From assembly GCF_001701045.1 (NCBI RefSeq), contig NZ_CP016757.1, forward strand, positions 1,605,501 through 1,669,500: a DNA stretch of 64,000 nucleotides, written 5' to 3'. A program made the translations under genes and the position numbers. Numbering within the stretch: position 1 is the first letter of the stretch; each line of letters starts with the position of its first letter. Below are positions 154 to 6,727 of the stretch, piece by piece. The DNA is from Cloacibacillus porcorum (GTDB lineage Bacteria > Synergistota > Synergistia > Synergistales > Synergistaceae). The notes under the pieces are model-generated. The model ran no database searches, was not told where the DNA came from, and worked only from the letters and a program-made list of their open reading frames with translations.

Positions 154-182
154 TTTCAGAGTAGGGGGACGGGCGCTATAAT
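154..182 (+). promoter_or_regulatory. Possible sigma70 promoter for the thioredoxin gene
   Basis: A perfect TATAAT lies at 177-182. A weak -35 (TTTCAG, 154-159) sits 17 nt upstream. The start codon proposed for the downstream gene is at 223, leaving a leader of about 35 nt. Confidence 0.4.
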
Positions 183-222: not shown

Positions 223-558
223 TTGAAGTCCATCAACGCGGCGGACTTTGAGCCGGAGGTCCGCAATGCCTCCGCCGTGAAGCCGGTGATACTTGATATA
301 TGGGACCCGGGCTGACCTCCCTGTCTGGCGCTCGCGCCTAAATTCGCGGCGCTGGGCGAAAGATACGGGGACCGTATCATATTTCTCAAGATGAACAGGG
401 CGGAGAACCGGGAGATAATGAAGACGCTGGCTCTGCGCGGCGTTCCGACAATCATCTTTATGAGCGGAGGCACTGAAATATGCGGCCGCCTCACGGGCGA
501 CGCCGAAGCCACCGCGGAGAATATCGAGGCGGCGATAACGAAGATCCTGGCCGTTTAG
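223..558 (+). CDS. Thioredoxin with predicted selenocysteine at the active site (in-frame TGA)
   Basis: Reading frame 1 from TTG 223 to TAG 556-558 gives 111 codons with one internal TGA at 313-315. With that codon read as U the active site is WDPG-U-PPC (U31, C34), which aligns with the W-A-x-WCGPC redox site of thioredoxin. The rest is a complete fold: DFEPEV at the N-terminus, VILDIW strand, ALAPKFAALGERY helix, the cis-Pro loop GVPT (P75), and IIFMSGG strand. The total length is normal for thioredoxin. Start choice: an AGAAGAG sequence lies 8 nt upstream of TTG 223, and the frame is closed by TGA at 220-222. A short hairpin (GGCG-CTCG-CGCC, 327-338) begins 11 nt after the TGA and might contribute to a SECIS, though I cannot confirm one. 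The alternative is a nonsense mutation, but a TGA falling exactly on the nucleophile with the frame intact on both sides argues for recoding. It is likely to reduce cytosolic disulfides or selenoenzymes. Confidence 0.75.
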
Positions 559-590: not shown

Positions 591-1769
591 ATGATGAGGA
601 AATTGATTGTTTTAGCGGCGCTGTTTCTGCTTTACGCCCTCCCCGCATCCGCCGCCGCGCCGTTTCATATCGGCGTCGTTACGGGAACGGTCTCGCAGGG
701 AGAGGATAATGTCCGCGGTGCGGAAAAGCTCATCTCGATGTACGGCGACGCCTCCAAGGGCGGCATGATAAAGCATGTCACCTACCCGGACAACTTCGGC
801 GCGGAGATGGAGACCGTCATCAGCCAGATAGCCGGACTCGCGGACGACCCAAAGATGAGGGTCGTGGCGGTTATGGAGGGCGTTCCCGGTACGGCCGAGG
901 CCTTTCGCCGGATAAAGGAGAAGCGCGGCGACATCCTTTGTCTCACGGGGCAGCCGCAGGAGGACCCGAACGTTATCGGCGAGGTCGCGGACCTGGTCGT
1001 GAACTCCGACAACCTCGCGATGGGCTACATCATGCCCGCGGCGGCTAAAAAGCTCGGCGCCAAGACCTACGTGCACATATCCTTCCCGCGCCATATGAGC
1101 TACGAGCTGCTCTCGCGCCGCCGCAAGATAATGGAGGCGGCCTGTAAAGACCTCGGCCTGCGCTTTGTCTTTGAGACGGCCCCCGACCCGACGAGCGACG
1201 TCGGCGTTGCCGGAGCGCAGCAGTACGTTCTGGAAAAGACCGCCGCCTGGCTCAGGAAATATGGAAAAAACACCGCCTTCTTCAGCACCAACGACGCGCA
1301 GGTCGAGCCGCTGCTGAAGAAGATAACGGAGCTCGGCGGTTACTATGTGCAGACCGATTCGCCGCTGCAGGGCTACGCGGGCGCGCTGGGCATCGACCTA
1401 AGCAAGGAGAAAGGCGACTGGAAGGCGATCCTTGCCAAGATAGAGAAGGCCGTCGTCGCTAAAGGCGGCAAGGGGCGCCTCGCCACCTGGGCCTATCCCT
1501 CTGGCTACTGCATCACCGCCGCCCTCGGCGAAATTGGCAAACGCGTAGTGGAGAAGAGGGCGAAGCTGAACCGCCAGGCCGATGTGATGAAGGCCTTCGC
1601 GGTTTTTTCTCCCGGGATGACCTGGAACAGCAGCGCCTATACCGACGCCGCCACTGGAGTGAAGATGAAAAACTTCCTGCTCATCTACCAGGATACCTAC
1701 GTCTTTGGCAGAGGACCTCTCGGAATGGACAAGATAAAGGTCCCCGAGAAATACTATCGGATGAGGTGA
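591..1769 (+). CDS. DUF3798-type exported periplasmic binding-like protein
   Basis: A 392-residue protein starting MMRKLIVLAALFLLYA and followed by PASAAA, a clear signal peptide with cleavage near residue 22. The rest looks like a periplasmic-binding-protein fold: strand-rich start HIGVVTGTVSQGEDNVRGAE, alternating alpha/beta segments, and a C-terminal KVPEKYYRMR. From memory this matches the DUF3798 family of exported proteins with unknown ligand; I cannot name a substrate. GGAGG lies 7 nt before the first ATG, and the second ATG (594) is an equally possible start. The gene follows the selenocysteine thioredoxin by 32 nt with no terminator between them, so the two may share a transcript. 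No transporter genes accompany it. Confidence 0.7.
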   Translation: MMRKLIVLAALFLLYALPASAAAPFHIGVVTGTVSQGEDNVRGAEKLISMYGDASKGGMIKHVTYPDNFGAEMETVISQIAGLADDPKMRVVAVMEGVPGTAEAFRRIKEKRGDILCLTGQPQEDPNVIGEVADLVVNSDNLAMGYIMPAAAKKLGAKTYVHISFPRHMSYELLSRRRKIMEAACKDLGLRFVFETAPDPTSDVGVAGAQQYVLEKTAAWLRKYGKNTAFFSTNDAQVEPLLKKITELGGYYVQTDSPLQGYAGALGIDLSKEKGDWKAILAKIEKAVVAKGGKGRLATWAYPSGYCITAALGEIGKRVVEKRAKLNRQADVMKAFAVFSPGMTWNSSAYTDAATGVKMKNFLLIYQDTYVFGRGPLGMDKIKVPEKYYRMR

Positions 1770-1970: not shown

Positions 1971-2747
1971 ATGGTTAACAATAAAGAGCAAAAATTAAAA
2001 TCATTGGTTGGCATACGGATATCAGGAGTTCCTTTACTTGCATCGTATCTGACGAGGTCGGGCATATCGCCGAACTTGCAGCAGTATTATCGGCGAAGCG
2101 GGTGGCTTGAGCGGATCGGGCGCGGCGCTTATATCTGGCCTGGCGACATGCTCGATTGGCAGGGTATTCTTTATGCTCTTCAATCGCAGATCAATATGCC
2201 GGTCCATATAGGGGCGAGGACGGCGCTCGCGCTTCAAGGATATGCGCAGTTTCTGCGGGGAGAAGGGGAGCGCGTCTTTATATTTTCCGGTCAAACGCGT
2301 ATCCTTCCGGCGTGGACAGCGGATGCGGCCGGACTTACGAAGTTTTGTCTCTGCCATACGTCGTTTCTGACGGACGATCGTGCCGGTATCACGGATATAC
2401 CTCACAAGACCATCTCCATTCGCTGCTCCAGCCCGGAGAGGGCGATACTTGAAACATTGCACCTCGCACCGCAGACGATAAGCTATAGCGAGGCGTACCA
2501 GCTGACAGAAAATCTCGACACGCTGCGTCCCCAGCTGCTGCAGGAGCTTCTGTCGGGCTGTAATTCCATACGCGTCAAGCGGACGTTTTTGCTATTTGCG
2601 GATCGCGCTGGTCATTCGTGGGCACAGCGGCTCGACCGGGATAAAATATCCCTTGGCAAGGGGGTGCGCAGTTTGGGCAAGAATGGCGTTTATCTCGAAA
2701 GATACGGTCTGGTGATACCCCAGGAACTGAATCGGTTATGGCAATGA
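1971..2747 (+). CDS. AbiEi-family antitoxin (type IV toxin-antitoxin)
   Basis: A 258-residue protein starting MVNNKEQKLK. The N-terminal winged-helix part contains SYLTRSGISPNLQQYYRRSGWLERIGRGAY, typical of AbiEi antitoxins, in which this domain binds the operon promoter. The stretch IGARTALALQGYAQ continues the family signature, and the C-terminal half is the part known to neutralise the toxin. ATG 1971 is chosen over the earlier in-frame ATG at 1953, which would fall inside the promoter -10. The stop overlaps the next gene by 10 nt, so the pair is translationally coupled. AbiE systems act in phage defence and plasmid or island stabilisation. By analogy with other AbiE loci this protein probably represses its own promoter. 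Confidence 0.82.
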   Translation: MVNNKEQKLKSLVGIRISGVPLLASYLTRSGISPNLQQYYRRSGWLERIGRGAYIWPGDMLDWQGILYALQSQINMPVHIGARTALALQGYAQFLRGEGERVFIFSGQTRILPAWTADAAGLTKFCLCHTSFLTDDRAGITDIPHKTISIRCSSPERAILETLHLAPQTISYSEAYQLTENLDTLRPQLLQELLSGCNSIRVKRTFLLFADRAGHSWAQRLDRDKISLGKGVRSLGKNGVYLERYGLVIPQELNRLWQ

Positions 2748-3673
2748 ACTGTTTCGCTCAATCTTACATGGAGCAGCTTCACCTTGTTGTGCGGATTCTT
2801 CCGGCGATTGCGCGAAATGGTGCGTTTGCGCTCAAAGGCGGAACTGCCATCAATCTTTTCGAGCGCGGACTGCCGCGCCTGTCAGTCGATATCGACCTCT
2901 GTTACCCGCATTTCAGCGAACGCGCCGAAGCCCTTGGCTCTATTGTCAAACATCTGACATCGATCAGGCAGGACTTATCAAAGCGTATCCACGGGATAAA
3001 GTTTGTCAATCTTGGCGTGGAGTCGCTGGAATATAAGCTGCTTTGCCGGACGCCTGAAGCCATTGTCAAAATCGAGGTGAACACTACGATGCGCGGCCAC
3101 GTCTTTCCCATACGCACGATGCCCGTGCACCCAGACGCCGAAGAAATTCTCGGCCAGTACACGGAGATGCCGGTGATATCGAGAGAGGAGTTATACGGCG
3201 GAAAAATCTGCGCTGCGCTCGACCGCCAACACCCCCGCGATTTGTTCGATTTGGCTCCGTTTCTATCGGGTTCGGGAAATGGCTTCGACAGGCGAATTGT
3301 CCTTGGTTTCATCATCTGCCTGTTGAGCCATAATCGCCCACTCCATGAGCTGCTCGCACCCAACGCGCACGATATGAAGGAGGCGTTTGACAACCAATTT
3401 GTTGGAATGAGCGCTATGCCCTTTACCTATGAGGATTACGTCAAGACGAGGGAAATGCTCTTCGCGGCTCTTCCCGCCCTATTGGACGACGCCGACCGGA
3501 AATTCCTGGTATCGTTCGCCGAAGGTGCCCCCGATTGGAGCCTCTTTGAAGTTCCAGACGCTGCGAGGCTCCCCGCGATACTCTGGAAGCTTCGCAATAT
3601 CGATATATTGAAAGAACGTTCCCCTCGCAAATTCGACGATCAATGCGCGATCCTGCGTGAAGTATTGAAATAA
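2738..3673 (+). CDS. AbiEii-family nucleotidyltransferase toxin
   Basis: A 311-residue protein. The nucleotidyltransferase motif is visible near the N-terminus as ALKGGTAINL (residues 31-40) followed by RLSVDIDL (47-54), with the paired Asp metal ligands D51 and D53. A later conserved block EELYGGKICAALDRQHPRDLFD (around 148-170) is typical of the AbiEii/AbiGii family. These toxins transfer nucleotides to RNA targets and cause growth arrest; the exact target here is unknown. It is encoded directly after the AbiEi antitoxin with a 10-nt overlap. ATG 2738 or ATG 2744 could be the start. All motif residues are intact, so the toxin should be active. Confidence 0.87.
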   Translation: MAMNCFAQSYMEQLHLVVRILPAIARNGAFALKGGTAINLFERGLPRLSVDIDLCYPHFSERAEALGSIVKHLTSIRQDLSKRIHGIKFVNLGVESLEYKLLCRTPEAIVKIEVNTTMRGHVFPIRTMPVHPDAEEILGQYTEMPVISREELYGGKICAALDRQHPRDLFDLAPFLSGSGNGFDRRIVLGFIICLLSHNRPLHELLAPNAHDMKEAFDNQFVGMSAMPFTYEDYVKTREMLFAALPALLDDADRKFLVSFAEGAPDWSLFEVPDAARLPAILWKLRNIDILKERSPRKFDDQCAILREVLK

Positions 3674-3891
3674 ACAGCGAACGGTGTATGTAAAGTTTTC
3701 AACGAACACAGCCTTCCATTATTTCCATCTTCTTTACGTTATATCTTCCCTGAGGGGCATTATTGATTGTGACGCCGGTATTATTGATATACATTAAGAT
3801 TTTTATCCTTCCCTCTTTTTTCTTGTTAAATGGCGCGGCGAATGTCTATATACGGTGCGTAATATTCCGTCTCTGCCGTGCGCAAAAGTTA

Positions 3892-3897
3892 TATAAT
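3892..3897 (+). promoter_or_regulatory. Possible -10 element
   Basis: A TATAAT lies about 38 nt upstream of the start of the CPHC protein gene. No convincing -35 is seen. The 3674-3891 interval otherwise shows no gene. Confidence 0.3.
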
Positions 3898-3934
3898 ATT
3901 GGCAATAGATAAAACGAAAGGAATGGTGGCAGCA

Positions 3935-4198
3935 ATGAAGGAACTGAAGATGTTTATGTTCGAGGGATGCCCGCACTGCAAACGGGCTGAGGAGATGATA
4001 TCGGAGCTGCTTGCCAGGCACCCGGAATACAAAGAGGTGCCCTTCGTCATGATCGACGAAAAGAAGGAGCCCGAAGTTGCCGACAAATACGATTATTACT
4101 ACGTCCCCACATTTTTTGTCGGCAGCGAGAAGATCGCCGAGGGAGTTCCCACCGAAGAGGGTGTGGAAAAGGCATTCAGCACGGCATATAAAGGATAG
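3935..4198 (+). CDS. Small thioredoxin/glutaredoxin-like protein with CPHC site
   Basis: An 87-residue cytosolic protein, MKELKMFMFEGCPHCKRAEEMI, with redox motif C12-P-H-C15 and a cis-Pro loop YVPTFFVG near residue 64. Size and pattern fit a minimal glutaredoxin/thioredoxin fold. CPHC is the motif of oxidising DsbA enzymes and of some thiol transferases, so the physiological direction is unclear. ATG 3935 is preferred because GGTGG lies 5 nt upstream; earlier in-frame ATGs (3878, 3923) overlap the promoter or lack a site. Cysteine synthase follows 11 nt later, so the pair looks like an operon linking thiol redox chemistry to cysteine formation. Confidence 0.75.
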   Translation: MKELKMFMFEGCPHCKRAEEMISELLARHPEYKEVPFVMIDEKKEPEVADKYDYYYVPTFFVGSEKIAEGVPTEEGVEKAFSTAYKG

Positions 4199-4209
4199 GC
4201 GGGGAGAAC

Positions 4210-5130
4210 TTGAAGAACGTTGAAGATCTGGAAATAATGGAGCTGGTGGGCGGTACGCCGCTCTACCGGCTCAAAAGGGACGGCGGCGGCGCGCAGGCCT
4301 GGATAAAGCTTGAGGGCGGCAACCCCGGAGGCTCGATCAAGGACCGCGCCGCCTGGGGTATGCTGAAAGAGGCGCAGAAAAATGGCCAGCTCACGGAAAA
4401 GACGGTGATTGTGGAGCCGACGAGCGGCAACACAGGCATCGGGCTTGCGATGCTCGGACGGGCGCTCGGTCTGCCGGTGGTTCTGACGATGCCGGAATCG
4501 ATGTCGCAGGAGCGCCGCGCGGTGCTCGCCGCCTTTGGCGCGAAGCTTGTGCTGACCCCCGCCTCCGAGGGGATGGCGGGCGCGGTAAACGAGGCGAAAA
4601 GAATGCTGGCCGAGGATGCGAACGCGCTGATGCTCGACCAGTTTTCCAACCCAGGCAACCCGCGCGCGCATGAGGAGAGCACGGGGCCGGAGATCCTGGC
4701 CCAGCTGCCCGACGGCAAGAAGCTGGCGGCCTTTGTCGCCTCTTTCGGCACCGGCGGCACCGTCACAGGCGTTGGCCGCGCCCTGCGCAAAGAGTTTCCC
4801 GAGGTGAAGGTCATCGCCGTGGAACCGGCGTCCAGCCCTCTGATCACCAAGGGCAAGGCCGGTCCGCATAAGATCCAGGGGATCGGCGCGAACTTTGTCC
4901 CCGCGAACCTCGCCGTCTCAGAGATCGACGAGTTCATGACCGTCACCGACGAAGATGCTCTGTCGACCGCGCGCCGTCTGGCCGCCGAGGAGGGCCTTTT
5001 CAGCGGCATCTCCACCGGAGCCAACGTCTGGGCGGCGCTGAAGGTGGCGGCCGACCTCCCGCGGGACAATGTCGTCGTCACGGTCCAGCCGGACCGCGGC
5101 GATAAGTACCTGAGCATTTTTTCCAGTTAA
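4210..5130 (+). CDS. cysK: Cysteine synthase (O-acetylserine sulfhydrylase)
   Basis: A 306-residue PLP enzyme converting O-acetylserine and sulfide to cysteine. The PLP lysine is K44 in GGSIKDRAA. The substrate loop is TSGNTG (71-76), and the PLP phosphate loop appears as GTGGTVTGVGRA (around 178). Length is normal for the CysK/CysM family. The start is a TTG (4210) preceded by GGGGAG. The ORF ends in a serine-rich SIFSS tail. It lies 11 nt downstream of the CPHC protein gene. CysK and CysM cannot be told apart here, so O-phosphoserine or thiosulfate as substrate remains possible. No serine acetyltransferase gene is nearby. Confidence 0.9.
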   Translation: MKNVEDLEIMELVGGTPLYRLKRDGGGAQAWIKLEGGNPGGSIKDRAAWGMLKEAQKNGQLTEKTVIVEPTSGNTGIGLAMLGRALGLPVVLTMPESMSQERRAVLAAFGAKLVLTPASEGMAGAVNEAKRMLAEDANALMLDQFSNPGNPRAHEESTGPEILAQLPDGKKLAAFVASFGTGGTVTGVGRALRKEFPEVKVIAVEPASSPLITKGKAGPHKIQGIGANFVPANLAVSEIDEFMTVTDEDALSTARRLAAEEGLFSGISTGANVWAALKVAADLPRDNVVVTVQPDRGDKYLSIFSS

Positions 5131-5811: not shown

Positions 5812-6141
5812 ATGATGCCGGTGGAAAGCAAGATCGCCCTCTTCACTGATAAAGATGTTACGCTTGAGGTTCCCGTATCTCCCGAACGTGATACGGTTTG
5901 GCTGACGGCAAATCAAATGGCGTTATTGTTTGATAAGGATGAGAAGACGATTCGCAAACATATCAACAATGTCTTTGCCGATGATGAGTTGTCTTTGGAG
6001 AACAACACGCAAAAAATGCGTGTTGTTGGCGTGAAGCAGCCGGTGGCTATTATGATTGCGGAATCCCGCACCGAGGAAAAGTTGGATGATTCAGTTGTCG
6101 CAAAATTTGCGACAACTGCCGCCGATGGAAAGACCTGCTAA
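5812..6141 (+). pseudogene. Truncated or rearranged RhuM-family protein
   Basis: The 110 residues from ATG 5812 contain the diagnostic RhuM N-terminus: TVWLTANQMALLFDKDEKTIRKHINN and NTQKMRVVGVKQPVA. Intact RhuM proteins are around 300 residues and continue after KQPVA into a FYSLDVIISVGYRV-type block. Here the frame jumps to IMIAESRTEEKLDDSVVAKFATTAADGKT and stops. That second piece resembles a displaced segment of another RhuM-type sequence, so an internal deletion or fusion is likely. It is probably nonfunctional. RhuM genes are often found on islands, which fits the nearby AbiE pair. Confidence 0.6.
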
Positions 6142-6163
6142 ATAAATTATCCGTACACAAAGC

Positions 6164-6192
6164 GAGGAGCCCCGGATTTTTCAGGGCTCCTC
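6164..6192 (+). terminator. Intrinsic terminator between convergent genes
   Basis: GAGGAGCCC (6164-6172) pairs with GGGCTCCTC (6184-6192) around an 11-nt loop, followed by TTCTGTT. It sits between the RhuM remnant on plus and purE ending on minus, and may work in both directions. Confidence 0.65.
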
Positions 6193-6214: not shown

Positions 6215-6727
6215 TTAATAGGCGTCCGCGGGGGCGGCGGGGAGGTTTTCGAGCTTCTTGCGGCTCTCGCGCACCTTGCTGGCCTCTTTTTCCGCGTAGG
6301 CTTCGAGCTTTGCCGTCAGTTCGTCGTCGGTCGCCGCGACGATGCGCGCCGCCAGCAGGCAGGCGTTTTTCGCGCCGTTGAGGCCGACGGAGGCGGCGGG
6401 GACGCCGGGGGGCATCTGCGCGATCGAGAGCAGCGCGTCAAGTCCGTCCATCGCGCCGCCCTTGACGGGAACGCCGATGACGGGCAGCGTGGTCGCGGCG
6501 GCCACCACTCCGGGGAGCGCCGCGGAGAGTCCGGCGACGGCGACAAGCGCCTTGATGCCGCGCTTGCGCGCGCCCTTCGCGTAGTTCTCGACGTCCGCGG
6601 GCGTGCGGTGCGCCGAGGCGATCGCCACTTCAAATTCTATGCCGAGCTCCTCAAGGACTGGCGTTCCCTTTTCCACGACGGGAATGTCCGAGGCGGAGCC
6701 CATGATGATGCCGATTTTCGGTGCCAT
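6215..6727 (-). CDS. purE: 5-(carboxyamino)imidazole ribonucleotide mutase / AIR carboxylase
   Basis: A 170-residue protein starting MAPKIGIIMGSASDIPVV. Visible motifs are GSASD (phosphate loop) and IASAHRTP with the catalytic His. The block GLSAALPGVVAAATTLPVIGVPV and the tail GAKNACLLAARIVA are typical of PurE. It carries out the carboxylation step giving CAIR. No purK is present in the operon, so this enzyme may work directly on AIR with CO2 (class II-like) or use a PurK encoded elsewhere. AGAGGAAA precedes the ATG. It is the last gene of the purine operon. Confidence 0.93.
   Translation of the reverse strand: MAPKIGIIMGSASDIPVVEKGTPVLEELGIEFEVAIASAHRTPADVENYAKGARKRGIKALVAVAGLSAALPGVVAAATTLPVIGVPVKGGAMDGLDALLSIAQMPPGVPAASVGLNGAKNACLLAARIVAATDDELTAKLEAYAEKEASKVRESRKKLENLPAAPADAY

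Follow-up and report, generated by a model that had tools for sequence, protein, structure and literature searches.

Thioredoxins of the Pfam family PF00085 with selenocysteine in a UxxC motif are an established family of bacterial selenoproteins, with hosts such as Treponema denticola, Geobacter spp., and Carboxydothermus (PMC1794560, PMC9312934, PMC13188914). A thioredoxin-like selenoprotein with the same type of motif, SaoT, belongs to the Sao ABC-transporter locus and has been listed together with selenoprotein components of ABC transporters (PMC13188914). Cloacibacillus porcorum strain MFA1 encodes all genes for Sec insertion and requires selenium (PMC10838667). For strain CL-84, 18 known selenoprotein genes have been described, all of which were recovered by deep-Sep (PMC12013277).

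Here we describe a locus from the genome of C. porcorum CL-84 (a single contig of 3,585,187 bp) which lies in a stretch of 64,000 nucleotides at positions 1,605,501–1,669,500, hereafter called the window. Judging from its sequence, this locus is almost certainly a functional selenoprotein gene that codes for a Sec-thioredoxin. Like the described bacterial Sec-thioredoxins, the predicted protein combines a thioredoxin domain with Sec in place of the N-terminal catalytic Cys and a UxxC motif, in an anaerobic host that contains SelABCD. Unlike these proteins, it carries UPPC within a WDPx context, its gene is linked to a DUF3798 gene, and the candidate SECIS is atypical. The locus also differs from that of SaoT, since its neighbor is a DUF3798 gene with no permease or ATPase gene adjacent to it; in an NCBIfam scan at E 1e-3, the SaoT model NF040730 did not match the protein. 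This Sec-thioredoxin is a member of an established family, either new or already listed among the 18, and adds a well-supported selenoprotein to a selenium-reliant gut anaerobe.

The thioredoxin gene and its predicted product

The initial annotation had proposed a thioredoxin frame with a TGA codon exactly at the first redox cysteine. The coordinates were right (Table 1), and both the Pfam match and an alignment with PDB structures agree with this proposal. That gene callers would overlook such a frame, as the initial annotation also stated, is plausible. The frame comprises a TTG start, 30 codons ahead of the TGA, which is codon 31, and 80 codons from there to the TAG stop. With the TGA translated as U, the sequence reads LKSINAADFEPEVRNASAVKPVILDIWDPGUPPCLALAPKFAALGERYGDRIIFLKMNRAENREIMKTLALRGVPTIIFMSGGTEICGRLTGDAEATAENIEAAITKILAV. 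The Pfam Thioredoxin model (PF00085) matches residues 3–104, and hence spans the TGA, with an E value of 3.4e-15 and 56.4 bits against a gathering cutoff of 23.5. In an alignment with many PDB thioredoxins, U31 coincides with the N-terminal catalytic Cys. Preserved are C34, the resolving Cys, which completes the UxxC motif, the Asp-x-Trp element ahead of the active site (D25 and W27), and the cis-Pro region GVPT. Against the NCBIfam equivalog models for housekeeping TrxA, the protein scored under the cutoffs (NF047697: 65.5 bits vs 140; TIGR01068: 49.9 bits vs 96.8); by this measure, it is a divergent thioredoxin. No signal peptide could be recognized by eye.

Table 1. Features of the Sec-Thioredoxin Locus (Positions in the Window)
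Feature	Position	Strand	Remarks
Sigma-70-like promoter, TTCAGA-16-TATAAT	155..182	+	consensus match only
Sec-thioredoxin gene	223..558	+	TTG start at 223, one in-frame TGA, TAG stop at 556–558; 111 residues
UGA for selenocysteine, U31 of WDPG-U-PPC	313..315	+	G021 has TGA at this codon and G006 a codon for Cys; purifying selection on both sides
Hairpin 1, candidate SECIS	322..360	+	apical loop from 20–23 nt after the UGA by fold; loop of 8–10 nt
Hairpin 2, GATACGG-GGA-CCGTATC	362..378	+	7 bp, GGA triloop; inside the coding region, 46–63 nt after the UGA
DUF3798 (PF12683) secreted solute-binding-type protein	591..1769	+	follows the thioredoxin gene after 32 nt; 397 bits

These features suggest the following mode of action. 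SelB and Sec-tRNA would read the UGA as selenocysteine, and the resulting thioredoxin would be cytosolic, with U-P-P-C as its active site. The selenolate of U31 would attack disulfides, or other oxidized sulfur or selenium groups, in the substrate, and C34 would then resolve the mixed selenenyl-sulfide. The gene appears to have its own promoter, which probably drives the thioredoxin and the DUF3798 gene together. The block GCTATAATATCG in this promoter region is also found upstream of the orthologous gene in a genome from another genus (G021, see below). A scan of the 64-kb window with Rfam at gathering thresholds gave no match.

Orthologues, selection, and selenocysteine machinery

Within Synergistota, this thioredoxin subfamily was detected in only three of 188 genomes (E < 1e-50), namely, C. 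porcorum and two genomes from other genera, G021 and G006. The orthologue from G021, which belongs to the same family as C. porcorum, is 60% identical to the CL-84 protein, and the only in-frame stop is a TGA at the very same codon, within WDPS-U-PPC. The G006 orthologue contains no in-frame stop; here the site is occupied by TGT, and the motif reads WDPC-C-PPC. Two points raised in the initial annotation are thereby settled: homologues do carry U or C at the active site, and when we looked for decay in close relatives, we found intact frames. The three proteins form one clade with support of 100/99. In a tree of Synergistota thioredoxins, this clade is a separate branch, set apart from the others, including the one linked to glycine reductase. 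The branches of this tree are long, and the grouping of the three proteins is also backed by gene order. The same-genus genome G001 lacks a close orthologue. Two contig searches were uninformative: in genome contigs, the three-row alignment yielded no more than two partial matches, both enterobacterial, and in viral contigs the thioredoxin-like matches were all distant, with identities of 23–27%.

Comparison of the C. porcorum and G021 genes by the NG86 method gave dN 0.34 and dS 1.47 downstream of the TGA, which corresponds to a dN/dS of about 0.23. Upstream of the TGA, pN was 0.34 and pS was 0.77. The two wrong frames showed dN/dS values above 1.3 and several stops. The low ratio after the TGA and the high ratios in the wrong frames show that selection on the protein sequence runs on through the TGA.

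The genome of C. porcorum CL-84 also contains the machinery for selenocysteine insertion. We found a tRNA-Sec gene (77.4 bits against a gathering cutoff of 47), which ARAGORN also reports as tRNA-SeC with anticodon tca, and SelA (562 bits) directly adjoining SelB (380 bits). SelD (321 bits; locus L049, 1432–2529) has an in-frame TGA of its own, within SG-U-AAKIAP, and GrdA and GrdB both have in-frame TGA codons at the known Sec positions. The search for selA, selB, selC, and selD suggested in the initial annotation thus recovered all four, as expected for a host that makes selenoproteins. SelA and tRNA-Sec are also present in both G021 and G006. Because they are present in G006, the Cys form in this genome represents a Sec/Cys exchange within an organism that uses Sec, and the subfamily offers an example of such an exchange at a single active site between related genera, all with Sec machinery. 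Taken with the TGA- and Cys-containing orthologues and the selection on both sides of the codon, this machinery strongly supports the earlier proposal of a selenocysteine UxxC thioredoxin.

Hairpins after the UGA and alternative readings of the codon

A bacterial SECIS had been expected after the TGA, and this expectation was weakly borne out: a stem–loop (hairpin 1) does occur at the usual distance, but the fit to the consensus is not clean. In CL-84, hairpin 1 is more stable than GC-matched synonymous variants (P about 0.006–0.03, depending on the length folded), and in G021 a codon-preserving fold test placed its stability not above that of synonymous controls. The published model for bacterial SECIS elements calls for a G within the first two positions of the loop (PMC13188914). 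The most stable fold of hairpin 1 has no G at these positions. Both species comply with this rule only if the loop is allowed 10–11 nt (spacing of 20 in CL-84 and 22 in G021), and with loops capped at 9 nt, CL-84 has another hairpin that passes (spacing of 32) and G021 has none. The scan has little power, because 35–51% of random TGA triplets pass as well. GrdB and SelD from the same genome fit the model well, with GGU and GGC loops at spacings of 18 and 17, respectively. GrdA, which belongs to an accepted selenoprotein family, also fits poorly, and atypical SECIS elements have been reported in the literature. The Sec-thioredoxin of C. porcorum serves as a test case for an atypical bacterial SECIS in a genome where GrdB and SelD have textbook GG-loop hairpins.

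Hairpin 2 is paralleled at the same codons in G021 by GATACGC-GGG-GCGTATC, again a stem of 7 bp but with a GGG triloop and with one G–C pair replaced by a compensatory C–G pair. Given the protein sequences and codon usage, the chance for a stem with seven of seven pairs is 0.0038 in CL-84 and 0.0007 in G021, values that apply to a site picked post hoc in two related species. Conservation of this hairpin with a compensatory pair is for these reasons no more than suggestive. When folding starts 9–12 nt after the UGA, as if the ribosome sat there, the same two-hairpin layout is predicted for both species; when the UGA-proximal bases are included, the G021 sequence prefers a different structure. 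The loop of hairpin 2 lies 53 nt after the UGA and thus beyond the accepted range for bacterial SECIS elements. This hairpin may contribute to the recoding signal, or it may have arisen by chance. It was also flagged by a terminator scan.

We considered three other explanations for the TGA. Since a single codon separates the frame from that of an ordinary Cys thioredoxin, the TGA might be a nonsense mutation in a pseudogene or a sequencing miscall. This explanation is very improbable, as an independent genome of another genus has a TGA at the same codon despite about 40% divergence of the protein, and the downstream frame is under selection; with the G021 orthologue sharing the TGA, we rejected it. 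UGA is an ordinary stop elsewhere in such bacteria and the SECIS fit is imperfect, so the codon could also be a true stop, followed by re-initiation to produce the 3′ part (PPC...) or leaving a short peptide as the product. But neither half would make a complete thioredoxin domain, the residue lost would be the catalytic nucleophile, and the G006 orthologue has Cys at exactly this position. We regard this possibility as scarcely credible.

The imperfect SECIS fit might equally point to near-cognate readthrough, by which the TGA would be decoded as an amino acid other than selenocysteine. This idea is again highly implausible in view of the dedicated Sec machinery and the other recognized selenoproteins in this genome; moreover, homologues have the catalytic Cys at this site, and most other residues there would be inactive. 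Decoding of the UGA as selenocysteine thus remains by far the most probable reading.

The DUF3798 neighbor and the glycine reductase question

The gene downstream of the Sec-thioredoxin codes for a protein of 392 residues with an N-terminus that resembles a signal peptide. It is a clear member of the DUF3798 family, an uncharacterized family of secreted binding proteins for which PDB 3qi7 is the only solved relative that we found by sequence. The two genes probably form one operon. The pair occurs in all three genera with the thioredoxin; the DUF3798 proteins from the other two are 89 and 71% identical to that of C. porcorum, and the intergenic gaps are longer. DUF3798 as such is common, being present in 160 of 188 Synergistota genomes. 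None of 30 DUF3798 loci sampled across this phylum adjoins a thioredoxin of the Sec-thioredoxin type, and the pairing therefore looks lineage-specific. In G001, no close DUF3798 was found either (best identity 63%), and absence of both genes from this genome is as expected if the pair was gained or lost together.

Other DUF3798 genes of C. porcorum adjoin genes for an ABC ATPase and a BPD_transp_2 permease. This location suggests that DUF3798 proteins are best read as the solute-binding parts of ABC importers. The copy in the window stands alone in this respect: it has no adjacent permease or ATPase gene and is linked to the Sec-thioredoxin instead. At locus L146 (4514–18548), three genes of this family lie close to an M24 peptidase gene and to two sets of genes for ABC ATPases and permeases, which supports a solute-binding role of DUF3798 in ABC importers.

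The linkage of a Sec-thioredoxin to DUF3798 raises the question as to how the two proteins may be related. Direct contact between them is unlikely, because the thioredoxin has no signal peptide by eye and the DUF3798 protein is secreted. The more economical idea is a shared substrate pathway. We tentatively suggest that the thioredoxin may be a dedicated reductant in a pathway tied to the substrate of the DUF3798 protein and not the thioredoxin of glycine reductase, although we consider this function possible rather than probable. A more elaborate proposal would combine a two-gene selenium-dependent module, in which DUF3798 captures a substrate on which the Sec-thioredoxin, or a partner reduced by it, acts, with two-hairpin recoding that includes the distal GGA/GGG-loop hairpin. 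This combination strikes us as distinctly unlikely.

The initial annotation had also suggested that the enzyme may serve glycine-reductase-type or other selenium chemistry. C. porcorum is indeed rich in grdB-type genes, and thioredoxin is the reductant of glycine reductase (PMC10838667, PMC13188914), so that the Sec-thioredoxin could be the partner of a reductase for glycine, betaine, or sarcosine. Our analysis lent no support to this partnership. The grd cluster of glycine/sarcosine type (approximately 2.449–2.453 Mb) lies approximately 845 kb away from the Sec-thioredoxin gene (1.606 Mb) and contains a Cys thioredoxin of its own (2.452 Mb), which has a CVPC motif and is nearest to the TrxA-Clost model. 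This protein is 30% identical to the Sec-thioredoxin from the same family and genome but differs from it by having Cys in place of Sec, by its location in the grd cluster, and by falling into a separate clade. The Sec-thioredoxin is neither encoded inside the grd cluster nor grouped with this grd-linked protein; it forms a separate long branch and lies beside DUF3798 in all three genera. Since a thioredoxin is already encoded within the grd cluster, a role of the Sec-thioredoxin in glycine reduction is not supported, and partnership with any of these reductases appears unlikely.

Locus L053 (2501–6703) of the same genome, a reductase cluster, contains a grdE-type gene, grdB (TGA at 4884), a gene for a Cys thioredoxin (5842–6165), and grdA (TGA at 6356). 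The top model for the B component of this reductase is that of the sarcosine reductase GrdF, yet the score is under the cutoff of this model.

Just downstream of the Sec-thioredoxin/DUF3798 pair, the window encodes an AbiEi-type antitoxin (1953–2747) and an AbiEii nucleotidyltransferase toxin (2738–3673), which overlap and constitute a type IV toxin–antitoxin pair. The following region (3878–5130) contains a gene for a small protein that carries CPHC as a redox motif and looks glutaredoxin-like by eye but has no Pfam hit at E 1e-8; the gene immediately after it codes for a PLP-dependent enzyme of the cysteine synthase type (PALP).
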